Of a DNA stretch of 64,000 nt, positions 30,057-64,000 are shown in pieces. Every line of letters begins with the position of its first letter. Position 1 is the stretch's first letter. Origin of the DNA: Lineus longissimus (taxonomy: Eukaryota; Nemertea; Pilidiophora; Heteronemertea; Lineidae); assembly GCF_910592395.1 (NCBI RefSeq), contig NC_088316.1:10542001-10606000 (forward strand), given 5' to 3'. The notes below the pieces were generated by a model. That model saw only the letters and a list, made by a program, of their open reading frames with translations, did not search any database and had not been told where the DNA came from. The position numbers were made by a program, and so were the translations under genes.

Positions 30057-33000
30057 ATGGCCGATTTAAACAAATCAAACCCCCTGAGCTCTGCTCAACA
30101 AAACAAAAAAAGGGCCCGATCCGAGAATTGGAGCCCTGATGAAAAAGCTCTGCTTGCGGAGATGGTTGAGGAGAATTTCGGTATCCTCCTTAACAAAAAG
30201 ACAAATGTGGAAACCAATGCGAAAAAGCAGAAGGTGTGGGAGGGCATTGCCCTTGCTGTCACTGCACTTGGGACTAGCACCAGGACCTGGGACCAGTGCA
30301 GGGACAAGTGGCACAAGATGTGTACGAGTGGGAAAGAGTATATATCGAAGAAGAAGAGAGCGGCCAGTAAGACTGGGGGTGGCCCAGCTATGGAAGAGGA
30401 CACCGAGGACCCTCTTTTGGAGAAGGTGGGTGCCCTCCACAAAGGCAATCCATCTTGGCATGGCATTCGAGGAGGGAGTGAGACTGGCCCCACATCATCA
30501 TCATCAGCAACAGCCCTACCAGCACCTCGTCCAAGTCAACAGGCATCAACATCAGCCACTGCAGCAGCCAAATCTGGTGAGTTTCTTCAGGTTTTTATCA
30601 AAATTGGCCTGCAAAATGCTAGCCAGTGCATGCATTGAACACTTGAAATACATTGCCGTGTACATGATGTATGTAGCATGTACAGTGACAGAAAGCGTCT
30701 GCTATTTTGACCCAATTATAAACATTGGCACAGAGCCATAACCTGGCAGACATGGCGGTTCATGCCCATTTCGCCTTGTCTTTTTTCGCCTTTTCCCATT
30801 TTGCCTTTAAAAAATATACATTTCGCCTTCTCCTATTTCGCCTTTTCCAATTTTGCCTCTTCCCTATCCGCCTTATTCTATCTCGCCTTTGTCTTTTTTC
30901 GCCTTTTCATTTTTCGCCTTATGCTATTTTGCCTCTGTTTTATCTTGCCTTATCACAAGTTGCCTTATCCATTCTTGCCTTCGTCTCAGTTTGCCATTGT
31001 CTTAATCTGCCTTCTCCTATTTCACCTTGTCCTAATTTACCTTTGTCCTAATTCGCCTTCATCCTATCTCGCCTTTACCCGCCCCGCCTTTGTATTATTT
31101 CGCCTTCTTCCTACTGACTTTGCAACAAACTTGGTGTCTTTACCCATGTTTGTTGAGTCAATCCTCATATGAAAGTGTCTTCAACAGTGTTGAAGGGCTT
31201 CTAGGGTCCATTCGTGGGTACCCCCAACCAAAACCCGGTGGACATTGTCAAAATTACAAGTGCAGATAACTTCTCAGCCATTATAGTCATATTACATTAC
31301 ATACCATATTACAAAAGACTTTTGTCTCTTTTACCCATGTTTGTGGGGCCAGTCTTTCATATAAGAGTGTTTCCACGAATTATGTTTTGGTACCCTACCC
31401 AAGGCTGTTGCTTAATTACCAATATTTTCAAATCTTCATAACTTCTGAACCATCTACATGTAAGCTTACATGTATCTCCAAAACCAACTTAGTATCTTTA
31501 CCCATGTTTGTCAAATCTTAGAGTTTTCCAAGTCTTTCATGGAAATATTTTGGCATAGTGTTTTGGCATTCTTTGATGAGTAAGACTTGTGACCTGGTAC
31601 TATATAGGAGGGATGGGGGTGCTAAGTATTTTATTGATCATTCAAAGTGTGAGTGCTTCTGAAGTTCTTTATTATGGACTATGGTCAATAGGCCTACTCA
31701 AATCCAGCAATCTGGAAGATGTATTCCTTTGATCATTGGGGAATTATGAGGCCTTCTCACAGAACAAGTTAGCTCTCAAGAACGTCCCACGCAGTGTTCC
31801 CTTTAGATGGTTTTGGTATGTTTGATGTTCTTCATTCACAGCAATGCTATAACTTAGCATGAGATAATACAAGTCCCAAAGTTTTTTTGAACAGAATCAT
31901 TAAACTACTCAAAACACTGCCCCCCCCCCCCCCCCCCCCCCGCGAATAATAGACCCCTTGTAACGAAGGCGGATTGATAAAAGGCGAGGTGAGATATGGC
32001 GAAACAGGAGAAGGCAAAATGGGAAGAAGGCAAATTGACACAAAGGTCAATCAAGAAAAGGCAAGATGAGATAAGGCAGGATGGAACCAAGGCAGAATAG
32101 GACAAAGGCGAAATAAGAAAAGGCAAACTAGGATGAGGCAAGATGAGAGGAAGGCGAGTTAGGAAGAAGGCCAATTGGAACAAAGGCGAGATAAGACGAT
32201 GGCGAAATCGTAGAAGGCGAATTGAGAAAAGGCAAGTTAGGAGAAGGCTAAATGGGAGAAGGCAAAATTGGATAAGGCGAATAAGGTTAAGGCGAAATGG
32301 GCAGATACCGACATGGCATGGCCGCCTCCATTTTCACAAGCATGGGCTGTTCAACTGGCATCCAAAAGTGAGCCGTTGCAGCAGACAATAAAATCATGAC
32401 AATCAAGTATCAACATCACTATGATCACCTGACTCTGCTTAAGAATATCCACTAAGTCATGATCCATGACCAACACCATTTGAGCAGAAATATCACTTTT
32501 ATGCGACCAGTTTTGGGCACACACTCAGCCATGTTGCAACTGGGCGAGATCCGCTTTTATTTCATGCATATGGGATGCCTTCAAAGTAAAAAAAATGCGG
32601 ATCATGGGAGGGGACCTGATAACATTCAGTTATTGGCGGGGGCATGTCCTGGGAGGGACCTCTTAATTACCATGCATGAATCAGCTTTAAAATTCACACA
32701 ATTCTTTATTTTTTATTTTCAGATTATGTTCCCGTGTGGGAGGTAGGCGACAAATTAGATGAGCTGGAGAGGAAGTGCGCCGAATTAAATGCCCAATTCT
32801 CCCCTGTGACAACTGACAAGTTTCATGTCGACTTCCAGCAATCTGAGCTGAAAGATCGTGAAGATGATGCCAGGGAAATGTCAGCAAGGGATATGGCAGC
32901 GTACATTGAGGGCAGAGGGTCAAAGCTGAAGTCGAAGAAATCAAAGAAGTCAGCTAAGAAGACCAGCAATGCCAAAAACTCTGAAAGTGACATGGGGTGT

Positions 33001-53462: not shown

Positions 53463-53716
53463 TTACCTTAAAGGTTTCGAAAAAAATGTCTTATTTCCGA
53501 TCGTATACGATCGGAAATAAGACATCCTTCCGATCGTAGAGTCTGTAACCTCTGTTGAGTGGACCAGGTCGAACGTCTTTGCAACCCCAGGGACGGGTCT
53601 GAATATATCCACATAGTATTTTTCGCTGTTGAATCTTTGTACAGTTGCCATCCGATAACATATCCTTCTTCTTTGAACGTGTATGAAGCGGCCAAATGGA
53701 TGTTGAGCCAACCGCC
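53463..53716 (-). pseudogene. upstream exon of the minus-strand gene, frameshifted and cut by the Maverick
   Basis: The minus strand encodes YTFKEEGYVIGWQLYKDS in one frame and YYVDIFRPVPGVAKTFDLVH in the next. The two fit one domain if the A-run (GAAAAAT) near 53617 has gained or lost a base. The exon ends at a possible donor (AAG|GTAACTG, near 53467). A 40 bp perfect palindrome lies in its 3' part. At its 5' side the coding sequence stops at 53719, exactly where the Maverick terminus begins, so the insertion probably split this exon. Confidence 0.45.
53486..53525. repeat. 40 bp perfect palindrome
   Basis: ATGTCTTATTTCCGATCGTA is followed immediately by its own reverse complement. Confidence 0.95.
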
Positions 53717-53719
53717 GTA

Positions 53720-53849
53720 AGAATATATGTATTGTGGTGGTAGGAATCTAGGTAATTCTAAGCTATTTTAACAAAAGCCCTTACAGGCCTTTTTGTCTCA
53801 AATTAGCTTAGAAACCCCTAAGAACCAGACACCACAATACATATATTCT
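53720..53849. repeat. palindromic left terminus of the Maverick
   Basis: AGAATATATGTATTGTGGTG at 53720 is matched exactly by its reverse complement at 53830-53849. Imperfect pairing continues inward (TTCTAAGCTA..TTT, ACAAAA.GCC) to a central loop near 53785. The tip can fold on itself. Confidence 0.85.
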
Positions 53850-54073
53850 ATCATTCATTAGATTCCCAGTGAAGCGTTGCAATGAAATGGTCAGTGAAAC
53901 GTTGCAGTGAAATGGTAAGGGAACACTAGAGTTCAATGGGTTAAGGTAATCATGACTTACTGTATTCCAACAGAAAGTACACGTCAATAGCTTTTTTCCG
54001 TGCATTTTACCTGATATATGATGTTGGCACTGTTCACTGCATGTACATAATTTTACTAGTAAATAAATAGAAA
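53850..54073 (+). other. Maverick leader region
   Basis: It contains a 25 bp direct repeat (AGTGAAGCGTTGCAATGAAA / AGTGAAACGTTGCAGTGAAA, 53869-53918) and no reading frame. It probably belongs to the long terminal repeat or to the promoter of the capsid gene. Confidence 0.5.
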
Positions 54074-55330
54074 ATGGCAACAGGATATTTATTAAATACC
54101 GAAAGGGCACATAAGATTCCACTTGGTTTGAAAGCTGAGAGGCAGCATCATATCATTACTCATAACCCATCATCTGCTAACCCCAAAGAAACTTTGTATG
54201 TTAGAATACCGGCATTGCGAGAGAATACATTCTTTGTACCTAAATCTCTTTATCTGTCTGCTGATGTAACCATTTCTGGTGATTCTAAAAATAGTGTTGT
54301 AAATAATCTTGGTAGAAACCTAATCTCAAAGATGGTGGTTAAGTGGGGAACAGAGCAGATATTTGACCTTGACGAATACAGTCATTATTCTACATTTAAA
54401 GATCTGTGGTTTACAGAAGAAGAAAGAAATGATAGAGTTTTTCAGGGTATTCAGTCAAAAAATCTTAGAGAATTAAGATCAGGAGTCGCTGAAGCTGATG
54501 TCACTGGAGAAACAGCTAATGAAAAGACTTTAAAGAAAGTGTTTGACAAGAAGTACAAAATACCATTAGATTTTGAACTATTCCATCATCATGCTCCATT
54601 TTACAAGTTTCCAATTCAAGAAGATGTGATTATTGAAATAACTTTAGCACCAAAGGAGGAAATCATAGTCACCACAAACACAGCTAGCATGGGCTACAAA
54701 CTAGAGAATATTTGTTTTGAATATGATACCGTAACCAACAAAATGATTGCTAGTCAATTGAGTAACAAGTACAATTCTGGATTCTCAATATTTTATGATT
54801 GGGTAGACCATTTTAAGACAGTCAATGTTACTGCTAATGAAACACTAATTAATGAGAACATCAACTTTCCAAGAATGTCTATTAAAGGATTATTATTACT
54901 ATTTGTGTCTGACTATGTAGATGGAGCTAGAGATTCAGAGAAGTTTGAAAACCCTAACATAAGTAAAGTGCAGATCACAATAGAGGGTGTTGCCAATCAG
55001 GTGTTCCCAGAAGGAATGAGAATGATGGATCAATGGGAGGAGATCAAGAAACATTTTATGTCTGAAGATTTGAAGAAAACTCATGACTGTAACATGACCA
55101 TGGAGAAATACTATGGTGATTCTAATCACTATGGTTTATGGTTGGACCTGAGAACTTCTGAGGATAATCGCCTTCACGGATCAGGAAAGAAGCTCCAGAA
55201 CACAAAAGATGGTATTCAATTATCTATTACAAAGAAATCTGGAAAGGGACCATACAAAATGCACATATTCGTGGTTTCTGACGCCCAGGTAAACATCCAG
55301 AATTCTCAGATTGCTTCACTCCAACACTAA
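54074..55330 (+). CDS. Maverick major capsid protein (double jelly-roll, F54H12.2-like)
   Basis: The 418-residue frame has a beta-rich composition and no membrane segment. Its opening MATGYLLNTERAHKIPLGLK resembles the Maverick proteins annotated in animal genomes as F54H12.2-like, which correspond to the Polinton PY major capsid protein. That protein folds as a double jelly roll and forms hexon-like trimers of the icosahedral shell. Usual lengths are 400-600 residues, so this is a compact member. The start follows the left terminus by about 220 bp in an AAAATGG context. The stop TAA falls in the loop of a hairpin that begins a small tandem hairpin array (55322-55386). The assignment rests on remembered family resemblance and gene order. 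Fold prediction was not possible. Confidence 0.75.
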   Translation: MATGYLLNTERAHKIPLGLKAERQHHIITHNPSSANPKETLYVRIPALRENTFFVPKSLYLSADVTISGDSKNSVVNNLGRNLISKMVVKWGTEQIFDLDEYSHYSTFKDLWFTEEERNDRVFQGIQSKNLRELRSGVAEADVTGETANEKTLKKVFDKKYKIPLDFELFHHHAPFYKFPIQEDVIIEITLAPKEEIIVTTNTASMGYKLENICFEYDTVTNKMIASQLSNKYNSGFSIFYDWVDHFKTVNVTANETLINENINFPRMSIKGLLLLFVSDYVDGARDSEKFENPNISKVQITIEGVANQVFPEGMRMMDQWEEIKKHFMSEDLKKTHDCNMTMEKYYGDSNHYGLWLDLRTSEDNRLHGSGKKLQNTKDGIQLSITKKSGKGPYKMHIFVVSDAQVNIQNSQIASLQH

Positions 55331-55386
55331 GGTGTTGCAAGAACAAAGTTCGCTCCAGCACTGAGGTGCTGCAAGAACAAAAGTTC
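55322..55386. repeat. tandem hairpin array at the capsid gene stop
   Basis: Two ~34 bp units, each with a 6 bp-stem hairpin (CAACAC-TAAG-GTGTTG; CAGCAC-TGAG-GTGCTG) followed by a 4 bp-stem hairpin (GAAC-AAA-GTTC; GAAC-AAAA-GTTC). It could serve as a 3' end signal. It shares its form with the hairpins elsewhere in this element. Confidence 0.8.
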
Positions 55387-55443
55387 GCTCCAACACTGAA
55401 TACTAGATAAATGAGTTTTACTAGTGATTTTCTAAGTAATTAA

Positions 55444-55680
55444 ATGGATACACCAGGAAAGAAAGATATCATAAATACACTGTATCAAAGTTTACTGTTG
55501 GCATCAACAACAATTGGTTACTCTATGTTACTGAAAAGGTTCTTGAGAATCAATATTGGTCCCCCAAGTCAGGCCGACCTAGAGGAAATTCTTAAACTGG
55601 GAGGAACTGTAGCTATTAGTAATGGAACATTAGAGTACCTTTACGATCAAGGAATCCTACCCAGAAATATTATGAAGTAA
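55444..55680 (+). CDS. small membrane protein of the Maverick
   Basis: The frame of 78 residues starts in a GTAATTAAATGG context, 113 bp after the capsid gene. Residues about 11-32 (TLYQSLLLASTTIGYSMLL) form a probable membrane helix. A second weaker hydrophobic segment (LGGTVAISNGTLEYLY) follows a polar loop. Similar small proteins lie beside the capsid genes in other Mavericks, but I know of no established function. A minor virion or scaffold role is only inferred from its place between the two capsid genes. No motif suggests enzymatic activity. Confidence 0.6.
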   Translation: MDTPGKKDIINTLYQSLLLASTTIGYSMLLKRFLRINIGPPSQADLEEILKLGGTVAISNGTLEYLYDQGILPRNIMK

Positions 55681-55737
55681 GAATAATTTACTTATTTGAT
55701 AAAAGCTAAATTTGAAAACGAAAATTTGCTTAAGTAA

Positions 55738-56505
55738 ATGGTTACTGTAATGAACATAGATTCAAGTGACTATCCAGATCAGAGTTCAAGTGATTTAACA
55801 GTCAATCTCAAGACTGAAATTCAGGATGCATGTAGCATCACTTTAACTTTTGCAGTAATACCTTGTACATTCTACAACATAAGTGCAGCCAGGGAGAATA
55901 ACCGAATCAAAGTTAAGGGTTTTGATGTGGCAGAGATTACGCTACCAGATGGTCTCTATGACCTACAGAGCTTTTCAAAAGTATTTGCGGATAAGTTGAA
56001 AGAAAATAGTATGAGTAGAGGTGCTGTCAGATTTGACCTTGAAGAACCAACAGGTAAGGCCATCTTACACTTCCTAAAGAGAAAAAATGAGGCGCATTAT
56101 CAGATCTATTTTCTTGGTAAAAGTAATGAATTATTTGGCATGAAATCAGAATGGCCTTACCCTTTAGACAATAAAAGTAAGGATGATGTTGTAAGCGAGA
56201 AACCCATCAATTTTAGACCAATTAACCATTTTGTTTTTCACTGTGACATAATCGAATCTAATAGTGTATTAAGTAATGGTGAAGCATCTGATGTGCTAAC
56301 CACAAGACCAATAAAGGAAGCTAATTTTGGGGATTTAATAGCATACACATTTGAGAAACCAATAGCAATTCCCTGTAAACCAAGATTCAATAAGCTGAAT
56401 ATTCGCTTAACTGATGAAAAAGGTGAAATCATCGATCTTAATGGTCATAATGTACAGTACCAATTGGTATTAACTCGAGCTATGCTCTCAGGGACACATC
56501 ATTGA
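55738..56505 (+). CDS. penton-like minor capsid protein
   Basis: This 255-residue beta-rich protein is the second capsid-type gene, 57 bp after the small membrane protein. The opening MVTVMNIDSSDYPDQSSSDL and the following short beta strands (ITLTFAVIPCTFYNI, RIKVKGFD) resemble the single jelly-roll penton proteins of Polintons and adintoviruses, which occupy the fivefold vertices. The length is right for that family. Its start context is TTAAGTAAATGG. The last ten residues (RAMLSGTHH) are encoded by half of the element's hairpin module (56473-56490), so the C-terminus has probably been altered by a hairpin insertion. Function is by analogy only. Confidence 0.6.
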   Translation: MVTVMNIDSSDYPDQSSSDLTVNLKTEIQDACSITLTFAVIPCTFYNISAARENNRIKVKGFDVAEITLPDGLYDLQSFSKVFADKLKENSMSRGAVRFDLEEPTGKAILHFLKRKNEAHYQIYFLGKSNELFGMKSEWPYPLDNKSKDDVVSEKPINFRPINHFVFHCDIIESNSVLSNGEASDVLTTRPIKEANFGDLIAYTFEKPIAIPCKPRFNKLNIRLTDEKGEIIDLNGHNVQYQLVLTRAMLSGTHH

Positions 56506-56527
56506 AATTAAAATTCATTGGAATTAA

Positions 56528-56986
56528 ATGGCTGGCATTGGCATGTTATTTGGATCTGCAATAATCAATGGATTAGCATTCACTGGATCCGGTTACCTTT
56601 TTAAAAAACTAGACAAGAATGGCTATGAGACTGAAGTGAAAAGACATGATTTGGCTCAGGAGCAATTACAAAAAGCTTCAACCGAATGGGAGGAGCATAG
56701 GAAAAGTACCATTGACTTCGTTAATCTTGAATTAAAGAGAGAAAGAGACGCTTCTATTGATTTTAACAATACTGATTCAGCACTTACTGTTTACAATCAT
56801 TTACATCCAGAAAGAACTATTGTACTACCTCAGCGACCACAATTAAGTGATTACTACCAACCTAGTGATGAAATGAAGAAATACGAGTACCTATGGATTA
56901 TCCTAGGACTTAGTGGTTTAGGGTTAATAATTTATTATTTTACTAGGGTTAGAAAGACTAAGACAACTGATCGGACACAGTCCTGA
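56528..56986 (+). CDS. minor virion-like membrane protein
   Basis: A 152-residue protein starting at GAATTAAATGG, 22 bp after the penton-like gene. It has a small Gly/Ala hydrophobic N-terminus (GIGMLFGSAIINGLAFTGSG), a long charged, probably helical middle (residues 28-80), a Pro-rich stretch and one clear membrane helix at 121-138 followed by basic residues. The architecture fits a membrane-active or cement-type minor capsid protein, as placed after penton genes in several adenovirus-lineage elements. I cannot name a homologue. Its 3' end faces that of the ATPase across 15 bp. Confidence 0.5.
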   Translation: MAGIGMLFGSAIINGLAFTGSGYLFKKLDKNGYETEVKRHDLAQEQLQKASTEWEEHRKSTIDFVNLELKRERDASIDFNNTDSALTVYNHLHPERTIVLPQRPQLSDYYQPSDEMKKYEYLWIILGLSGLGLIIYYFTRVRKTKTTDRTQS

Positions 56987-57001
56987 TGATGAGAAGCGGG
57001 A

Positions 57002-57622
57002 CTAAGATTTTTGATGGGAAAGAGTAAATCCAAATGGATGTTGTAGTCTAATGATCAGTTTTGATCCTTTTTTCATCTTAAGTTCTTCTATGTAGTACTG
57101 TCTTTTCTCCTTAGGAATAACACTGTTTTCTTCTAAGGCATCTTTCATGGCTGATTCATCCTTATTAAAAAATAATACTAAAATTCTTATGTTCTCTCTG
57201 TAGTCCTTAACAACTGAATTGTACTTCTGAACTAGTAACCAAACAGTGAGATTGTAGTGCCTGCCGGAAAAGGCAAGATTACATAACTCGGACACCTTCT
57301 TTTTTGTGTCTCTCAAATTAGCACAGTCATCAATGAGGAATAATGTGTTAGAACCAGCAAAGGTCAGAGTAGCAAACTGAAGCACAAGGTCCAAATTACT
57401 GGCCACAGCTTCGGGATTAACTATGTAGACGTTCTTGTCTTGGTAAATCCATTTCCTTTCATATGTCTTATTATTGAAATATGTTGGACAGAAAATGACT
57501 ATGTTCTGGAACTTGTGCCGATACTCCTTTTCTAAGAGGTCAAGGGCAAAATATGTCTTACCACAATTGGTAACACCAGAAATTAACATATTGTGTGGCT
57601 CGTAAATAAATACTTCACTCAT
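57002..57622 (-). CDS. FtsK/HerA-type (A32-like) genome-packaging ATPase
   Basis: The 206-residue P-loop ATPase has Walker A GVTNCGKT at residues 16-23 and Walker B LFLIDD at 94-99. A polar sensor-type region follows (LAFSGRHYNLTVWLLVQ). This is the size and pattern of the A32-like packaging ATPases of Mavericks, virophages and adintoviruses, which pump DNA into the empty capsid. It runs opposite to its neighbours. Its start codon is only 4 bp (TTAA) from the integrase start, so the two divergent genes share the palindrome CATTTAAATG. No break is seen. Confidence 0.9.
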   Translation of the reverse strand: MSEVFIYEPHNMLISGVTNCGKTYFALDLLEKEYRHKFQNIVIFCPTYFNNKTYERKWIYQDKNVYIVNPEAVASNLDLVLQFATLTFAGSNTLFLIDDCANLRDTKKKVSELCNLAFSGRHYNLTVWLLVQKYNSVVKDYRENIRILVLFFNKDESAMKDALEENSVIPKEKRQYYIEELKMKKGSKLIIRLQHPFGFTLSHQKS

Positions 57623-57626
57623 TTAA

Positions 57627-58808
57627 ATGAATGTAAAGGATGACACACAGCAGTATCTAAGGGATTTGTACTACAACCCTGAGAGTCCCGTGGCTTACAG
57701 TTCTTTGAGTAAAATCTGGAAACAGGTCAAGGAAGATATGACTTCGTCACGAGAGCAGAGCACAACTTCGTTGTTAGGGACAAAGTCCCGCTCAGGAAAA
57801 CTTATTAAAAAAAAAGAAGTGAAAGAATTTCTAGAAACACTACCAACTCACCAACTACACAAACCGGCCATTAAGAAATTCACCTTCAGGAAGACAATGG
57901 TATCGTACATCGATCAACAGTGGCAAGCTGATCTGGTTGACATGCAAAAATTTGAGAAACAGAATCGAGCTATGCTCTCAGGACAAAGTCCGAATAAGGG
58001 TTTCAGATTCATTTTAACAGTCATAGATCTATTTAGTCGTTTTTCTTGGGCTCTAGCAGTTAAGAGTAAGAGGGGAGAAGAAATCAGAGATGCATTTAAA
58101 GTGATATTTGAGGAAGCAAAACCAACGAAAATCCAGTTTGATGACGGTAAAGAATTTTACAACAAACACTTCAAGGAACTTTTAACAGAAAATGACATAG
58201 ACTGGTTCTCCACAAAATCTGATAAGAAGGCAGCAGTAGTAGAGAGATTCAATAGAACCCTTAAAGAAAAAATGTGGCGTTATTTCACCGCTAAGGAGAC
58301 TGACAAGTGGATTGACGTTCTGGATGACCTGGTCAGCGGCTACAATAACACATTTCACTCATCAATAGGTATGAAACCTGTAGACGCCAGAAAGATGGAA
58401 AACGAAGGAACAGTGTGGTACAATCTTTACGGTCTTCACCTCAAAGAGACATTTGGTGATCCAAAGTACAAAGTAGGTGACAGTGTAAGAATTTCAAAGT
58501 ACAAGTCCATTTTCGGTAAAGGTTACATGCCCAACTACACTGAGGAGGTGTTCCAAATCAAACAGATCATCTTTACTCACCCTATCGTCTACCAGCTTGA
58601 GGATTACCACAAAGAAGAAATTCAAGGATATTTCTATGAAGAGGAATTGAGCTATGTTCCTAATCCTGACCAGCTAGAGTACAAGATCGAGAAAATCCTA
58701 AGGTACAAGACCAGTAAAGGCAAGAAATACGGATTAGTGAAGTGGAAGGGTTACAGTGATAAGTTCAATGAATGGTTACCAGTTTCTGATATCAAATCAT
58801 TGAAATGA
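57627..58808 (+). CDS. retrovirus-like integrase with C-terminal chromodomain (F54H12.3-like)
   Basis: The 393-residue protein carries an rve catalytic core: Asp102 in QADLVDM, Asp172 in IQFDDGKEF and Glu206 in VERFNRTLK, giving the D,D-33/35-E triad that joins the element ends to chromosomal DNA. A small barrel follows, then a chromodomain (EKILRYKTSKGKKYGLVKWK, aromatic cage residues present) that can steer insertion to modified histones. Maverick integrases and the C. elegans transposon-derived F54H12.3 share this layout. Two hairpin clusters lie inside the frame at residues ~42-57 and ~114-122 (SREQSTTSLLGTKSRS and RAMLSGQSPNKG), outside the catalytic residues and without shifting the frame. 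The gene is intact. Confidence 0.9.
   Translation: MNVKDDTQQYLRDLYYNPESPVAYSSLSKIWKQVKEDMTSSREQSTTSLLGTKSRSGKLIKKKEVKEFLETLPTHQLHKPAIKKFTFRKTMVSYIDQQWQADLVDMQKFEKQNRAMLSGQSPNKGFRFILTVIDLFSRFSWALAVKSKRGEEIRDAFKVIFEEAKPTKIQFDDGKEFYNKHFKELLTENDIDWFSTKSDKKAAVVERFNRTLKEKMWRYFTAKETDKWIDVLDDLVSGYNNTFHSSIGMKPVDARKMENEGTVWYNLYGLHLKETFGDPKYKVGDSVRISKYKSIFGKGYMPNYTEEVFQIKQIIFTHPIVYQLEDYHKEEIQGYFYEEELSYVPNPDQLEYKIEKILRYKTSKGKKYGLVKWKGYSDKFNEWLPVSDIKSLK
57751..57789. repeat. hairpin cluster inside the integrase gene (1)
   Basis: CAAC-TTC-GTTG and GGGAC-AAA-GTCCC stem-loops, preceded by a degenerate GAGC-AGA-GCAC, encode a Ser/Thr-rich linker. Confidence 0.8.
57965..57992. repeat. double-hairpin module inside the integrase gene (2)
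   Basis: GAGC-TAT-GCTC, then TCA, then GGAC-AAA-GTCC. It is the clearest full module and is translated in frame as RAMLSGQSP. Confidence 0.9.
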
Positions 58809-58896
58809 AATAAAGTCTCTAAAATGACTTAAGTCACAAGAACAAGTTCGAAAAACGTAATTTAAAAAAAAAATGTCCTACTAAATAAAGAAAGAA
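58809..58896 (+). other. integrase-HNH intergenic region with small palindromes
   Basis: GACTTAAGTC and GAAC-AA-GTTC lie at 58826-58849, followed by an A-run and the AATAAAG before the next gene. Confidence 0.5.
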
Positions 58897-60075
58897 ATGG
58901 ATGGAGCAATATTTGATAATCAGAATGATATGATGAATCAAAATGGTATGATGAATCAAAATGATATGATGAATCAGAATAATATGATGAATCATGATAA
59001 TATGATGAATCAAAATATTCAGAAGTTTTTGTATTATTTGCATCAAAATAATATGTTAAATCAAAATCTGATAAATCAGATTATGTTAAATCAAAATATG
59101 ATAAATCAGTTTATCTTAAATCAAAATATGGAAAATCAAAACATGGAAAATCAAAATATGATAAATCAGAATAATATGATGAATCAAAATATGGAAAATC
59201 AGAATAATATGTTAAATCAAAACATGGAAAATCAACCTACAATTTATTGTGTTAAGTGCTGTGAAAAGAAACCTGAAATTAATTTTGAAAAGAACAGGCG
59301 TAATAAACTACTTGATTACTGTAAAGAATGTGGTTCAAGTAAAATCAAGGGATGTAATAAATGTTATGAAAATAAATTACTAAGTGATGGTGAATTTGGT
59401 AAAGACGGAAATAGAGGTAACTGCAGATCATGTTTTAATTCATATTACAAAAAGGATTACCTTGACCAAAATGGTAATAGAGACAGACACAAAATTAGAG
59501 TTGGTCTAAACCGCATTTCTAAGGGAGAGTGTACCGGTAATTCATCATTCAATCTAGGATGTACAGACAGTTTCTTCTCACAGTGGTTAAAGTACCAGAG
59601 GAGTCTATCTCCAATAGGACAAAGTCCCGAGAACAGAGTTCGAATAGTAGAAGAAGAGTTGGATCATGTCTTACCAATCAAGGAATTCAAAGATAAACCT
59701 GAACTGTGCTTTGCTTGGTTTAACATTAGACCAATGTCTAAAACACAAAACAGACAGAAGAGTGCTAAAGTAGACTACACACTATTTAAGGATCAATTGG
59801 ATAGGTCAATGGATTTCATGGTAAAAATGAGAAGTGAAAACTGGTTTGTCTTTCGAGACCAGGATGTAATACCAAATTGGAAAATAGTGATATCACAGCA
59901 TTTCGGGGATTATCTTCGTGATGAAAATATGATTCTGCTTGACAGATTATCGAATTTAAATAATAACATGAGAATGAACCAGAACATTAACATATGTAGT
60001 CAGACAGAAATCATAAACGAGATGATTAAGTTGAATAATAGACTTGAAAGAAATTTACTCTTTGCAGTGAATTGA
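58897..60075 (+). CDS. Asn/Met-repeat, zinc-binding, HNH-endonuclease-like protein
   Basis: The 392-residue protein has three parts. Residues 1-113 are a low-complexity repeat of (M/N)MNQN-type units encoded by an ATGATGAATCAAAAT-like repeat. Residues 118-180 hold five Cys pairs (CVKC, YCKEC, CNKC, CRSC type), which should bind two zinc ions. Residues 200-290 look like an HNH nuclease, with Asp256-His257 in LDHVLPI, Asn276 and Asn285 in NIRPMSKTQNRQKS, and a preceding GCTDSFFSQWLKYQ helix. It may nick or process DNA during replication or integration. A hairpin cluster at 59617-59641 adds SPIGQSPENRV just before the HNH part. The nuclease assignment is by motif and untested. Confidence 0.6.
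   Translation: MDGAIFDNQNDMMNQNGMMNQNDMMNQNNMMNHDNMMNQNIQKFLYYLHQNNMLNQNLINQIMLNQNMINQFILNQNMENQNMENQNMINQNNMMNQNMENQNNMLNQNMENQPTIYCVKCCEKKPEINFEKNRRNKLLDYCKECGSSKIKGCNKCYENKLLSDGEFGKDGNRGNCRSCFNSYYKKDYLDQNGNRDRHKIRVGLNRISKGECTGNSSFNLGCTDSFFSQWLKYQRSLSPIGQSPENRVRIVEEELDHVLPIKEFKDKPELCFAWFNIRPMSKTQNRQKSAKVDYTLFKDQLDRSMDFMVKMRSENWFVFRDQDVIPNWKIVISQHFGDYLRDENMILLDRLSNLNNNMRMNQNINICSQTEIINEMIKLNNRLERNLLFAVN
58915..59240 (+). repeat. 15/12 nt tandem coding repeat
   Basis: About 20 imperfect copies of ATGATGAATCAAAAT and ATGGAAAATCAA-type units encode the Asn/Met-rich N-terminus. Confidence 0.9.
59617..59641. repeat. hairpin pair inside the HNH gene
   Basis: GGAC-AAA-GTCC and GAAC-AGA-GTTC separated by CGA, translated in frame. 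Confidence 0.9.
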
Positions 60076-60094
60076 TTTTATTTTACTTAATTAA

Positions 60095-60346
60095 ATGAAT
60101 AGAACTTGGGGTTACACAAAACGACCACGTAATTGGAAAGAAAGATTAGAACGATTTCATAGAGAATTAGAGGCAGAAGTAGAGTCAAAGTTGGAGCCTG
60201 GTCCCGAAAAACCTTTAAAACCTGCTGTGCCTGCTGGGACAGAAAAACCTTTAAAATTTAATGTACTTCAAAAACCTGTAGTGTCTGTAGGATCAACACT
60301 AAACACTAGAAATGACAGAACAACTGATTCTAGTTTTTCCCACTAA
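60095..60346 (+). CDS. small basic/Pro-rich protein, unknown
   Basis: An 83-residue frame starts at CTTAATTAAATG, 20 bp after the HNH gene. A basic aromatic start (NRTWGYTKRPRNWKERLERF) resembles a short DNA-binding or core-type peptide. It is followed by an internal duplication of the form EKPLKPAV/EKPLKFNV and a Ser/Thr tail. No family is recognised. The consistent start context and clean packing between genes are the main reasons to regard it as real. A basic virion core protein is one possibility, not demonstrated. Confidence 0.5.
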   Translation: MNRTWGYTKRPRNWKERLERFHRELEAEVESKLEPGPEKPLKPAVPAGTEKPLKFNVLQKPVVSVGSTLNTRNDRTTDSSFSH

Positions 60347-60350
60347 TTAA

Positions 60351-61010
60351 ATGGATGGAGACAATAAGGTTTATCCAGATTTAAGTAATTTAAACTCTGA
60401 AAGTCATTTGAACTATGAAAGGTCTGAAAAGCATACAGAAAGTAACCCTCAGGCTTTCAGACTACAACAAATATGTGAGGTTAAGAGTTTCTTAGAAAGC
60501 GAGATTGAATTTAGAAGAAAGATATTTTCAAAGTACAAAAAAGCATTTAGCGTAATTACTGGCATTAGCCATTTCCTTAATTTTGCCAGCGTTGCAGCCG
60601 GATCTGTTGGTGTTTCCGCTCTAGCTGGTGTCATCACGGCACCGATAGGCTTAGCTTTGGGTGGCGTAACAATAGGTAGTGCCATTATTTCATCAGCCTT
60701 AGGCTGGGAGAAAAAGAATATTCTTAAGAAAATTGAAAAGCATGAGAATATCAGAATGTTGGCAATTTCAAAACTGAACACAATCAATGATTTGGTTAGT
60801 AAAGCCTTAACCGATTCTCACATATCTACAGATGAGTTTACTTTGATTCTCAAGGAGAAGGAGAAATACATTTCGATGAAAAATGCCATTAGGAAAAAAC
60901 AAAGGGAGGCAAGTTCAGCTGTTGATGTAGAGTCTTTAAAGAAGACTTTTTTAGAAGAAGGAAAAAAACTAGCACAGACAGAGATGCTAGAAAAACTAAA
61001 AGTTCAGTAA
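60351..61010 (+). CDS. membrane-hairpin/coiled-coil protein, unknown
   Basis: The 219-residue frame begins at CACTAATTAAATGG, 4 bp after the preceding stop. A polar N-terminus contains YPDL, then a helix (RLQQICEVKSFLESEIEFRR). A long Gly/Ala-rich hydrophobic segment at residues 67-118 (GSVGVSALAGVITAPIGLAL, then GGVTIGSAIISSALGW) could be a membrane hairpin, and a charged coiled-coil C-terminal half follows. I recall similar proteins from Mavericks and invertebrate genomes but no function. Membrane interaction during entry or assembly is an inference. Near its end the message has a UUUUUUA heptamer (60947-60953) in the phase used for -1 frameshifting. The -1 frame stays open 62 codons to 61141. 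Confidence 0.55.
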   Translation: MDGDNKVYPDLSNLNSESHLNYERSEKHTESNPQAFRLQQICEVKSFLESEIEFRRKIFSKYKKAFSVITGISHFLNFASVAAGSVGVSALAGVITAPIGLALGGVTIGSAIISSALGWEKKNILKKIEKHENIRMLAISKLNTINDLVSKALTDSHISTDEFTLILKEKEKYISMKNAIRKKQREASSAVDVESLKKTFLEEGKKLAQTEMLEKLKVQ

Positions 61011-61141
61011 ATCAAACAGGACCCGGACTACGTCCTAATCCTAATGTGGTGTATCACTATCACTATTATCATGACTTCGGTGTTAGGGATGAATTTCACC
61101 AAGTAACACTACCATCAGCACCACCCTATTCATTAGTTTAA
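60947..61141 (+). other. possible -1 frameshift extension with PSAP motif
   Basis: TTTTTTA at 60947-60953 is positioned as X-XXY-YYZ in the zero frame. A second heptamer, A-AAA-AAA, follows at 60962-60968. After a -1 slip the frame is open for 62 codons to TAA at 61139-61141. The extension is basic at first and later His/Tyr-rich, ending with TLPSAPPYSLV. PSAP is the motif by which many virus proteins bind TSG101. An old frameshift mutation or an unannotated separate gene could give the same picture. Confidence 0.35.
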
Positions 61142-61263
61142 TCTAGCTATGCTCTCAGGTCAAAGCTCGACTAGGACAAAGTCCGAATAATGATTTTTGC
61201 AACTCGAACTTTGTTCTCTGGACGTAGTCGTACTAGGACAAAGTCCAGAGAGCAAAGCTCGAC
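61142..61263. repeat. intergenic hairpin cluster
   Basis: At least six stem-loops: AGC-TAT-GCT (61145), GGAC-AAA-GTCC (61174), GAAC-TTT-GTTC (61206), GGAC-GTA-GTC (61219), GGAC-AAA-GTCC (61236) and GAGC-AAA-GCTC (61250). It continues into the polymerase C-terminus with TCAAGC-GAA-GTTTGA (61263). Confidence 0.85.
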
Positions 61264-64000
61264 TCAAGCGAAGTTTGAATCGCTGTAATCTATGTAGCCT
61301 TCATAATACATTCCAAATGGTAAGGTGCTTATTCCATCTTCAAGTATGAACCTCTTGTCATCAAAAGGACTGAGGCTTTTTTTGTCAACTTCTTCCAAAT
61401 AGATTTGGTGTTTATCTGATCTTAAGTGTCTCATCTTGTGGTAAAATGACCTACTCTTTTCAAGACAATCAACATAGTCATCAAATGAGATATTTCTCCT
61501 TACTACATTCTTGGCAATACCCTTCAATTTCTTAGAATCGTAATCTTTTGTCGATCCTTGCTCTCCAGACATAGTCTTGGTCCTGTAAGCGTACATCTTA
61601 CTTCTCAGGGCAATGAATTCAGTCATCTCTACTCCTCCTAGCTCATCCTTAAAGTAGCCTGGTACCTTCTTCTTACTGGTATCATAGAGTGGATGATCTT
61701 TTGGATAATTACTGAAGTCAAAATAGTGTCTCAACTCCTTTAAGTCTTTAGTTAAGTCATCAGTATTAATGTTAAGTACAAAGGAATCTGTATCTAGATA
61801 CAGCAGTTCAATATTTTTCTCACCAAAGTACGGTTGAAGAACTTCATAATAGAATTCATACATTAATAATTTAGACAATTCAAGTACTGAAGCTCCTATG
61901 TAGATTGGTTTGTTGAATTTCATTGATGTTTTCCTCATGCTAATAGCAGCATTATGTTCGTCAAATACGCATATCGATGAAAACCTGGGATTGGCCATTA
62001 CATTCCTGGCTCTCTCCCCGTCCGATACAAATTCAATTTCAACCCTGTTCCTTACATTCTCACAAGTTTTTCCATAGAACGCATTGTTCATCAGTTTAAA
62101 ATAGTCTTTCTCAAAATCAGTCTTAGAGTCCATACGTCTTTTAGTGTTAAAATCAATGTATGGTGCTAACCACTTTGATTGTTTAAAGCTTATCACTGAA
62201 TGAACCCTCTTAAGTACCATTCCGTGCTTTAGGTAAAATTGTAGCATTCTGTAATGCACTATGTAATTAGTTTTATCCTTTTGTGTTAGTATTAGTTTCT
62301 CTACATTTGATCTTTTATCATCGCCCAGTAACTCTCTCTGGTAAGGACTTAATTCATCATCTTCAATAAAGAGAGATTCGGGACAGAATGGAAAGTTCCT
62401 TGACTTAAATTTAATATTTCCTGGATACTCCAAATCAACCTCTAAAAAGTAGCCTACTTCACTATCACTTGGAATTGCCATAATCTGCTCTTTACTGATA
62501 ACATTCATGTTAAGTCGAACCTTGTTCTCTGGACTTTGTCCTAGTCGAGCTTTGTCCTGAGAGCATAGCTCGAGTGGATCAATATCTATCATTTCAAAAC
62601 TACCATAGGGTTGAGGTTCCATCATGGACCAGCGGTAGAGATTATTTGCGTCTATGTAGAGTAGTTTGTGGTGTTCATCTGCCTTTACATGTCTTGTTCC
62701 CATAACACCCGAAATTCCACCTCGTATTGCTTTCTCAAAAGTAAGTAAGATGTTGGTATCAGTCAGTAGTTCTAGGTTTATTCCTGTGTACTTCAAACCA
62801 GCTTGCCAGGTTAGGCCTGGTGCCGAGTAACAGTGACAGGGATCTATCTGAAAGTAGTTCAAATTGACATCCCTGAATTTCTCAAATAAATCAGCTAAAA
62901 GGATCACATCAGTTTTGAGGTAGAGGTCAATGAACTCACCGTGATTCCTGATCTTGAAATGATCCCATATTACCTTAGCCTCATCATAGGCAGAATCAGG
63001 TGCCATTTCATTTTTCAATTCGTCAAAAAACATAGACTTTTCTAGGTAAGTAACATTGTAGCTTTCATGTGATGTGTAAAAAGAGTAAGGTACTGAACCC
63101 TTCTTCCTCAATAGCTTAAAGTCAGTGGTATTTGGGAACAGCTGTCTGGTAATTTTAAAATCATCATCCAACATTGATTTGGTTATGTTGTCTAAACTGG
63201 ACTGCAGGAATCTGTACGAGTCCAAAAACCTGAAACAACCGAACTGAAATGAAATGTATTCCTCTGATGTTTTGGCAAGTATTTTCAGTTTCTTGTACTT
63301 CGGTAGCTTATTCATTAATTCTTTAATAAATAAGTGAGAATCGTAATTACTGAGATTGTGAAAAAACACTGGAACAAACATAGCTTTCTTTTCATTCAAA
63401 TTACACGAGTTGTGAGCAGCACCTTGATATCTACCACAGTAGTGATCATGATCCTTGACCTTGTCATAACCCAAAAGTTGATTACAATAGTAACAATGTG
63501 TTTCTAATTGATATTTATGCCAGTCGGACTTCGTCCTGAGAGCAGAGCTCGAGTCTTCATCTGTCATTGTTAGAGGAAAGTTACAGTTCAATAAATTAGA
63601 GAATTGTTCTTCCATCCTGATTAACCAATTACAGAACACATCTACAACATCAGCACCCCTGTGAGACACATACTGGCTACTGTAAAGGTGTGTGTAGTCT
63701 GAGTGAACATAAACACCAACAGCTGATGCATTTTGTTTAAAAAGTTTCTTTGAACTCGGTTCTTTCATCATAGGTGGCTCTACTGATACTACTGGTATGT
63801 TGCCTTCGGCAGAAGAACAAGGTTCGCTTATCGCTTCGAAATCAGCATAGATCACAAACGGAACTCTATTTTTGAATGAGTGTTTTTCAAATTTAATTTG
63901 TGACCATTTACTGTTAGGTGGAGGCAAAGTAATCTTACAGTAATCGTGTTCTCCACATTTCTTTTTATGTTTATCTAGTGTTGACTTCCTGTAAAAGTAA
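61264..64000 (-). CDS. protein-primed family B DNA polymerase (N-terminus beyond window)
   Basis: About 910 residues are visible. The frame runs off the right edge, so the true start is outside. Upstream codons past 63927 encode a Cys/His-rich KKKCGEHDYCK segment. The 3'-5' exonuclease motifs are YADFEAI (near 63835-63850), NLSNYDSHLF and YLKTDVILLADLF. The polymerase motifs are YIDANNLYRWSM (motif A), KLMNNAFYGKT (motif B) and YLDTDSF (motif C, DTDS at 61793-61804), followed by SKMYAYRT. This is the Maverick/adintovirus replicative polymerase, which primes from a terminal protein at the inverted ends. Hairpin clusters sit in the frame at 62517-62571, 63527-63551 and 63815-63825, and one forms the last codons. 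None breaks the frame. Confidence 0.92.
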   Translation of the reverse strand, partial: YFYRKSTLDKHKKKCGEHDYCKITLPPPNSKWSQIKFEKHSFKNRVPFVIYADFEAISEPCSSAEGNIPVVSVEPPMMKEPSSKKLFKQNASAVGVYVHSDYTHLYSSQYVSHRGADVVDVFCNWLIRMEEQFSNLLNCNFPLTMTDEDSSSALRTKSDWHKYQLETHCYYCNQLLGYDKVKDHDHYCGRYQGAAHNSCNLNEKKAMFVPVFFHNLSNYDSHLFIKELMNKLPKYKKLKILAKTSEEYISFQFGCFRFLDSYRFLQSSLDNITKSMLDDDFKITRQLFPNTTDFKLLRKKGSVPYSFYTSHESYNVTYLEKSMFFDELKNEMAPDSAYDEAKVIWDHFKIRNHGEFIDLYLKTDVILLADLFEKFRDVNLNYFQIDPCHCYSAPGLTWQAGLKYTGINLELLTDTNILLTFEKAIRGGISGVMGTRHVKADEHHKLLYIDANNLYRWSMMEPQPYGSFEMIDIDPLELCSQDKARLGQSPENKVRLNMNVISKEQIMAIPSDSEVGYFLEVDLEYPGNIKFKSRNFPFCPESLFIEDDELSPYQRELLGDDKRSNVEKLILTQKDKTNYIVHYRMLQFYLKHGMVLKRVHSVISFKQSKWLAPYIDFNTKRRMDSKTDFEKDYFKLMNNAFYGKTCENVRNRVEIEFVSDGERARNVMANPRFSSICVFDEHNAAISMRKTSMKFNKPIYIGASVLELSKLLMYEFYYEVLQPYFGEKNIELLYLDTDSFVLNINTDDLTKDLKELRHYFDFSNYPKDHPLYDTSKKKVPGYFKDELGGVEMTEFIALRSKMYAYRTKTMSGEQGSTKDYDSKKLKGIAKNVVRRNISFDDYVDCLEKSRSFYHKMRHLRSDKHQIYLEEVDKKSLSPFDDKRFILEDGISTLPFGMYYEGYIDYSDSNFA
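62517..62571. repeat. hairpin cluster inside the polymerase gene (1)
   Basis: GAAC-CTT-GTTC, GGAC-TTT-GTCC and GAGC-ATA-GCTC, the module in reverse orientation. It is translated as an insert between motif A and the next conserved block. Confidence 0.9.
63527..63551. repeat. hairpin pair inside the polymerase gene (2)
   Basis: GGAC-TTC-GTCC and GAGC-AGA-GCTC, reverse orientation, translated as SSSALRTKSD. Confidence 0.9.
63815..63825. repeat. single hairpin inside the polymerase gene (3)
   Basis: GAAC-AAG-GTTC close to the first exonuclease motif. Confidence 0.7.

Follow-up and report, generated by a model that had tools for sequence, protein, structure and literature searches.

What are the short stem-loops that recur across a virus-like transposon of the ribbon worm Lineus longissimus, inside its genes as well as between them? 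The stretch analysed here (the window: 64,000 nucleotides of contig NC_088316.1, C9:10542001-10606000 of the genome searched, which comprises 391,118,348 bases in 30 contigs) holds from about 53.7 kb onwards the left portion of a Maverick/Polinton, which carries the hairpins and runs off the window. An initial annotation of this DNA had reported at least 20 stem-loops between 55.3 and 63.8 kb and had proposed a minimal mobile palindrome like the double-hairpin elements of fungal mitochondria or the palindromic elements of Rickettsia, a proposal that alleles with and without the insert in closely related copies strongly support. We consider it probable that the hairpins are an ultra-short, non-autonomous mobile DNA element resembling a miniature inverted-repeat transposable element (MITE), a double hairpin of about 27 bp multiplying inside one ribbon worm's Maverick family. 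That the double-hairpin element is mobile we hold with high confidence; that the Maverick supplies the mobilising activity is put forward tentatively.

Perfect hairpins with a 4-bp stem and a 3-nt loop (4-3-4) of the three stem types named in the annotation occur in the 64-kb window nine (GGACNNNGTCC), six (GAGCNNNGCTC) and six (GAACNNNGTTC) times, against means of 0.26, 0.32 and 0.87 (about 1.5 when summed) in 100 shuffles of the whole window. Twenty of these 21 lie at 55.3-63.8 kb, with the first copy starting at 55321 and the last ending at 63825, and the remaining one is a GAGC copy in the flank at 30086. The named stems do not exhaust the family: AGAC, GTAC, TGAC, GACC/GGTC and CAAC stems were also found, as was a second class with a 6-bp stem and a 4-nt loop that measures 34 bp including its repeat. 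The pairing of hairpins into a module was borne out, the unit being [C/A]-hairpin-NNN-hairpin-[G] of about 27 bp, which often has a flanking 3-bp direct repeat, so that 30 bp are typically added. Perfect double hairpins of any sequence (4-3-4, 3 nt, 4-3-4) number six in 54000-64000 (shuffle mean 0.3, maximum 4; 200 shuffles) and zero in the flank at 1-53999 (mean of 60 shuffles, 1.2). When one mismatch is tolerated, the element holds 21 (shuffle mean 6.8, maximum 16) and the flank holds 33, which is no excess (shuffle mean 27, maximum 46). Equal density was therefore found neither in shuffled sequence nor in the flanking part of the window. A scan of 53700-64000 against Rfam gave no match.

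The evidence that carries the case for mobility comes from comparing Maverick copies with one another. Seventeen filled/empty events were counted. Fifteen measure 30 bp, one 27 bp and one 34 bp, and the count leaves aside length blocks of other sizes in hairpin-rich intergenic DNA, where unit borders are unclear. At one site in the integrase, near-identical copies without the insert read GAGAAACAGAAT directly followed by AAGGG, and the window reads CAG-AAT-CGAGCTATGCTCTCAGGACAAAGTCCG-AAT-AAGGG; the 27-bp core (57966..57992) with AAT on either side thus adds 30 bp, and the site is filled in 8 of 44 copies and empty in 36. In the same 44 copies, a 27-bp insert in the integrase N-terminus is empty only in copy L059 and in 32 copies encloses a nested insert of 30 bp (L011: 33 bp), two copies have a second integrase site filled, and the 34-bp class lies upstream of the integrase in three. 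Another site, in the open reading frame (ORF) labelled HNH, is empty in the window and occupied in 13 of 30 copies; L018 and L020 have a further unit stacked on the first. The remaining events lie in the family B DNA polymerase gene (PolB) and the adjoining intergenic stretch, for which the set comprised 19 rows including the window, L049 and L057 having been dropped because they leave the element. The spread of integrase ORF lengths mirrors these insert states: among 105 scored copies, 68 encode 383-384 aa, 25 encode 373 aa, six 393-394 aa, three 391 aa, and one each 380, 374 and 371 aa.

Filled and empty alleles can be otherwise identical. Around the integrase site, L009 (filled) and L017 (empty) show no substitution in 597 bases, the insert being the sole difference, and similar pairs at the HNH site show none in 430 bases. 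This closeness is local, since at least six differences separate even the closest filled/empty pairs once about 1,850 bases at the integrase site are compared. Presence and absence of inserts are scattered over the integrase and PolB gene trees, which have few sites to draw on (706 columns, differing by 1.6% on average) and are poorly resolved. The near-identical pairs fit either recent insertion or allele exchange between copies, and they are compatible with precise loss as well.

An explanation by recombination and slippage only, in which old 30-bp palindromic tandem repeats are duplicated, lost and moved by gene conversion without true transposition, would account for the variable 30-bp arrays, the nested units and the insert states that conflict with the gene trees. 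Tandem stacks of units spaced 30 bp apart and units nested one within another do occur, but single units, in either orientation, are also found at separate sites that have clean empty alleles and repeats of their own (AAT, ATC, GAT within CGATC, ACT). Slippage alone would not seed such sites, and we regard this explanation as improbable.

The flanks point the same way. Triplets on either side of the unit agree at the predicted offset in 80 of 150 contexts (both strands counted), against at most 11 at each of six other offsets. In one orientation, 51 of 92 contexts match (ACT 33, AAT 8, GCT 3, ATT 3, TCT 2, AGT 2); these contexts are not independent, variants of one site being counted several times. 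At ten primary sites with readable flanks, the repeat is at least 3 bp in seven, 1-2 bp at the HNH site and absent in two; where a substitution lies beside the junction, as at the CGATC site, repeat length was read from the alignment view. The same flanks bear on the main rival, a variant of the mobile-element reading in which no dedicated enzyme acts and folded displaced strands are copied by template switching at ACT- or AAT-like microhomologies during PolB-driven replication. Read in the direction of the element itself, the flank triplet is strongly biased to A[C/A]T, which keeps microhomology-driven template switching in that position; some insertions without a repeat, together with the tie of every tested cluster to a Maverick (below), are in its favour. 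Nevertheless, 15 of 17 events add exactly 30 bp and some repeats read GCT, TCT or ATC, a tidier outcome than loose template switching might be expected to leave, and we consider such copying possible but somewhat unlikely.

In the window, copies occur in both orientations, between genes and within the frames of the penton-like C-terminus, the integrase, the HNH ORF and PolB, as had been annotated:

55321..55387, plus strand: two tandem double hairpins of the 34-bp class (a 6-4-6 hairpin, CAA, then 4-3-4 or 4-4-4), with CT(C) repeats between them; no empty allele was seen here, and a filled/empty example of the class, with an ATC repeat, occurs in L013-L015.
56476..56500, plus strand: double-hairpin element with a degenerate second hairpin, at the end of the penton-like ORF.
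57738..57794, plus strand: 57-bp insert in the integrase N-terminus, a 27-bp element with a 30-bp element nested inside; both parts are empty in L059, and L060-L070 have the 27 bp only.
57966..57992, plus strand: 27-bp double-hairpin core in the integrase, with AAT/AAT flanks (57963-57965, 57993-57995).
59616..59642, plus strand: 27-bp double-hairpin core in the HNH ORF, with AAT/AAT flanks; no empty allele was seen.
61025..61035, plus strand: single hairpin downstream of ORF 60351-61010; L075 has a full element with ACT repeats at the same position.
61143..61275, plus strand: elements of both orientations nested between genes, with length differences among copies in 30-bp steps and some other sizes.
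61552..61578, plus strand: older element in PolB (GATC-GCTC, AGAC-GTCT), absent in 3 of 19 rows.
62513..62575, minus strand: two tandem 30-bp elements in PolB, with 30-bp presence/absence between copies.
63525..63551, minus strand: 27-bp element in PolB with AGT/AGT flanks, filled in 9 of 19 rows.
63801..63825, plus strand: divergent double hairpin (TGCC-GGCA, GAAC-GTTC) in PolB without a flank repeat, which cannot be called an insertion because PolB relatives vary in length there, with sequences of their own (63787-63826).

The integrase stretch around 57738..57794 also differs in length among several relatives. At 56960-56990, the 3' end of ORF 56528-56986, lie 19-bp hairpin repeats (TGATCGGACACAGTCCTGA) whose number varies between copies and which are a single-hairpin relative of the double-hairpin element.

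The carrier is recognised by the joint presence of PolB, an rve integrase, an A32-type ATPase and a double jelly-roll capsid gene (Pfam; the capsid match is below Pfam's cut-off), and comprises the following features in the window:

53720..53850, plus strand: candidate left terminus of the Maverick, an imperfect inverted repeat starting AGAATATATG.
54074..55330, plus strand: major capsid-like ORF of 418 aa without an internal insert (Capsid_N, E 0.0033, below Pfam's cut-off).
55738..56505, plus strand: penton-like ORF, so named in the initial annotation (no Pfam match), whose 3' end is a partial element of the 30-bp class.
57002..57622, minus strand: A32-type packaging ATPase ORF (Pox_A32, E 6.8e-15).
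57627..58808, plus strand: integrase ORF with chromodomain (rve, E 1.6e-10; Chromo, E 1.2e-07).
58897..60075, plus strand: HNH/zinc-finger ORF, the HNH label again being that of the annotation (no Pfam match).
61264..63999, minus strand: family B DNA polymerase ORF, running off the window (DNA_pol_B_2, E 4.4e-19).

Similarity to two other Maverick copies begins near 53720, where the inverted repeat is 72-73% (left end only), and by eye this terminus, AGAATATATG, is unlike the double-hairpin element. Just to its left, at 53486-53525, lies a long near-perfect or perfect palindrome around TTATTTCCGATCGTATACGATCGGAAATAA. Genome searches gave 1,178 candidate integrase matches, of which the 105 scored are 97-100% identical (internal stop in 10), and 690 capsid candidates, of which 100 were scored; no insert was seen in the capsid gene of these 100, a list that favours insert-free copies. 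Length variation other than that of the hairpins also occurs: the N-terminal part of the HNH ORF (58900-59240) consists of short in-frame repeats rich in Asn, Gln and Met whose number differs among copies, and an 18-bp repeat of the CAGAAAAACCTGTTGGGA type at 60220-60270 varies in number from copy to copy.

Why do so many copies leave genes intact? The annotation had stated that the hairpins enter frames always without a frameshift and had suggested that they expand by adding peptide linkers. The first statement holds for the 27/30-bp class inside genes and not for every copy, the 34-bp class not being a multiple of three; this class, which would disrupt a frame, was encountered only at frame edges or past them (55321-55387 in the window, where the stop codon of the capsid-like ORF falls within its first hairpin, and L013-L015). 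The suggestion is better reversed: as 27 + 3 = 30 bp, no selection is needed to preserve the reading frame. Among the 92 distinct contexts, 63 lie inside open frames of at least 120 aa and 29 do not, and the 63 span all six frame and orientation classes (sense 33, 20 and 2; antisense 4, 3 and 1). Peptides read from different frames are unrelated (RAMLSGQSP, LRPESIARAG, DFVLRAELE, GQSPENRVR), even within one protein. In another copy, P0123 carries four tandem 30-bp units read in different frames, as LRPESIARAG and others. This protein (L008:312-1541) is an orphan of 409 aa with CxxC pairs, which we take to resemble a TFIIB-type factor; a homology search with it, rich in inserts as it is, found no homologue. 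By eye, the inserts appear to lie away from catalytic residues.

That the repeats are held as selected linkers, for the peptides they encode, could be argued from the in-frame coding copies and from the concentration of 53 of 63 coding contexts in two sense classes. Two other classes, however, have hardly any stop codons: open units number 59 of 60 for antisense phase 1 and 51 of 60 for sense phase 1. Both are rarely used, so that stop codons alone do not explain frame use. We draw no conclusion from this unevenness, because variants of one site were counted repeatedly and it may reflect few events. All six classes occur and they yield unrelated peptides in one and the same protein, which makes selected linkers a very improbable explanation.

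The annotation had also raised a packaging or recombination signal. Several copies do sit at gene ends or between genes (55.3, 56.97 and 61.0-61.3 kb), as would be expected of functional cis signals for packaging, transcription end or recombination that selection holds at useful positions. However, positions and numbers vary by copy, the three named stems are absent between the left terminus (53720) and 55.3 kb, 63 of the 92 contexts are inside ORFs, and Rfam returned nothing; transcription-end and packaging signals were considered and rejected, and cis function in general we find scarcely credible.

The genome search for other copies that had been proposed returned 1,938 matches (965+973) to one subtype pattern, CGAGCNNNGCTCTCAGGAC, and none (0+0) to the reversed pattern. 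The first 100 listed are all on C1 at 8.63-13.12 Mb (none is listed before 8.63 Mb) and form ten clusters of up to about 14 kb each, every one tied to a Maverick: five adjoin a scored integrase, and for the remaining five, one stretch apiece could be aligned to Maverick loci (identity 86-97% in the main pieces, 76% in one piece of L073). L073, an older Maverick, carries a copy too. Among the clusters inspected, the element has so far been found only in Mavericks, which points to Maverick activity or its replication. The flanks of L083 and L084 (8.2 kb), meant as a host control, contained one GAGC stem and one perfect double hairpin, which is A+T-rich and outside the element family; they are not a clean control because L083 turned out to hold an older Maverick. 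Positions 512-4140 of L083, the left flank of another Maverick copy, align to diverged Maverick sequence at 71-86% identity, and Mavericks therefore adjoin or sit inside one another. In L013-L015 (G000 C19:4333522, 4342591 and 4351646), near-identical Maverick integrases, each with a 34-bp-class insert, lie about 9.06 kb apart on one strand, a spacing that looks like tandem amplification of a stretch of about 9 kb.

Aligned integrase and PolB relatives without the palindromes do not share the encoded peptides, as the annotation's view of them as insertions would have it. None of the 25 integrase relatives aligned (of 120 listed) has the ten residues RAMLSGQSPN of the 57966..57992 insert, and P0024 and P0025 have unrelated residues there. 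Among 13 aligned PolB relatives (of 120 listed), ten residues are missing in all 13 at 63525..63551 and in 11 at 61552..61578 (nine in P0144, seven in P0146), and about 24 residues are missing in most at 62513..62575. In the 240 proteins listed by the two homology searches, GQSP, AMLSG, LELCS, ALRTKS, RAELS, DFVLR, LCPES and LSGQ do not occur; the strings that do occur are PESI in P0012 and P0034, SGQS in P0243, ENKV in P0193 and DKVR in many. P0012, a protein named L. longissimus with 74% identity, has the insert-like string PESIA in an N-terminal extension.

Beyond this genome, searches of public viral contigs by motif patterns, capsid, integrase or PolB found no relatives. The core pattern has no exact match in genome_contigs, where integrase alignment found five distant loci; these, in bacterial metagenome-assembled genome (MAG) records (33 kb), lack the three stems and any perfect double hairpin. 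Two records concern the integrase itself: P0001, labelled Bartonella sp. CL29QHWL, is a 91% identical Maverick integrase and probably animal DNA in a bacterial assembly, and L078-L079 are related integrases in the MAG of an Escarpia laminata symbiont, probably host contamination.

How might such an element move? In the mobile-element reading, a donor copy would fold as a single strand while the Maverick is replicated or repaired, be copied in that form and be inserted at a 3-nt staggered break, with help in trans, perhaps from the Maverick HNH ORF or from strand displacement and template switching by PolB. Gene conversion between Maverick copies might then spread alleles, slippage could alter array length, and selection would presumably remove inserts from proteins intolerant of ten extra residues. 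A bolder version sees the element as a folded single strand of 27 nt that is a parasite of an animal DNA virus lineage, is copied in trans by Maverick activity, and is pre-adapted to invading genes in that the unit and its duplication together make a multiple of three. Its intermediate might be a 30-nt single-stranded dumbbell circle, and rolling-circle copying would also yield 30-bp tandem arrays. We think this version unlikely; if true, it would be a self-contained mobile DNA class at the lower size limit.

Several observations weigh against the mobile-element reading. For the mobilising enzyme there are candidates only, insertion and precise loss are not polarised at every site, and the hairpin-rich intergenic DNA also contains length blocks of sizes other than 30 bp (32 and 92 bp; 19-bp steps). 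No repeat accompanies two primary insertions, the 27-bp one of the integrase N-terminus and a 30-bp one at ATATTT^GAGG, and the polymorphic HNH site has one of 1-2 bp only. The flank-triplet contexts overlap as stated, and their bias to A[C/A]T also fits microhomology-driven copying. The cluster statements cover the first 100 listed matches, the other 1,838 being counted only. Folded as single-stranded DNA, the 30-bp class has little stability (-3.2 to -4.6 kcal/mol; z -0.1 to -2.3). The stems covary only modestly: when hairpin 1 is kept constant, hairpin 2 is perfect in 36 of 59 contexts and not in 23, a count less biased than that of a stem-pairing shuffle (76 of 94 stems perfect against a shuffled mean of 29 and maximum of 46), for which copies had been chosen with at most two mismatches. 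Given this modest covariation and the small folding energies, we make no claim that structure, not sequence, is recognised.

What the element offers is unusual ease of counting. Because one assembly yields 105 scored integrase copies, it is possible to count directly where the element inserts, how long its units are, which flank repeats they have and what proteins tolerate, and the carrier genes make a short list of candidate mobilisers. Proteins of a virus-like element can, on this evidence, repeatedly gain insertions of ten residues. In the titles and abstract openings listed, we found no report of such elements in Mavericks, Polintons, adintoviruses or nuclear or viral genomes.

Among known systems, MITEs are non-autonomous, reach high copy numbers, have flank repeats and occur in both orientations, and the element shares these traits. 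It differs in being far shorter and in having two full hairpins as its ends, and no parent transposon was found, none having been searched for. As to a target-site duplication of fixed length, the repeat is at least 3 bp at seven of ten primary sites and less or absent at three. The palindromic elements of Rickettsia are bacterial, measure about 100-150 bp and enter protein-coding genes in frame. They serve here as a comparison system (PMC2635572). In-frame insertion in diverse proteins was likewise found here, although with a 27-bp core and in an animal-type genome. The REP/REPIN-RAYT elements depend on a Y1 transposase. No Y1-type transposase is among the Pfam matches of the scanned Maverick ORFs (host genes being outside the scan), and the flank triplets are ACT- or AAT-like. 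REP/REPIN-RAYT palindromes are described as prokaryotic, 20-40 bp long, dispersed in high copy number and marked by a GTAG/CGTC tag (PMC3733652), and shortness, dispersal and high copy number are what our element has in common with them.

The closest likeness, one of arrangement and behaviour, is to elements of mitochondria, in which hairpin repeats have been catalogued in sponges as well (PMC2800124). Fungal mitochondrial double-hairpin elements, known from Allomyces and other fungi (Paquin et al. 2000, as cited), are described as putatively mobile in PMC7218506 and PMC5910586; like ours, they consist of two adjacent short hairpins with a short spacer, are dispersed and are optional between close relatives. 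Unlike them, the present element is nuclear, lies in a virus-like DNA transposon of an animal, often has a flank triplet and adds a frame-keeping step of 30 bp. The copies studied lie in Mavericks on chromosome-size contigs, and because they are thus not mitochondrial we do not class the element with the mitochondrial ones, although it works like them. Yeast mitochondrial GC clusters, such as the 42-nt unit GC42, have AG or ACT flanks, are optional between strains, and merge and shuffle, and their transposition mechanism is described as unsettled (PMC4478555). Short, GC-rich palindromic units, flanks resembling target duplications, merger and shuffling of units, and presence/absence are common to both, and ACT makes up 33 of our 51 matching triplets. 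The L. longissimus unit differs from GC42 in its length of about 27 bp with 4-bp stems, in its many insertions inside protein genes and in residing in a Maverick of a 391-Mb genome. Tiny mobile palindromes known from mitochondria, where there is no agreed mechanism, thus have a counterpart of the same kind that is nuclear and has about 2,000 matches to one subtype.

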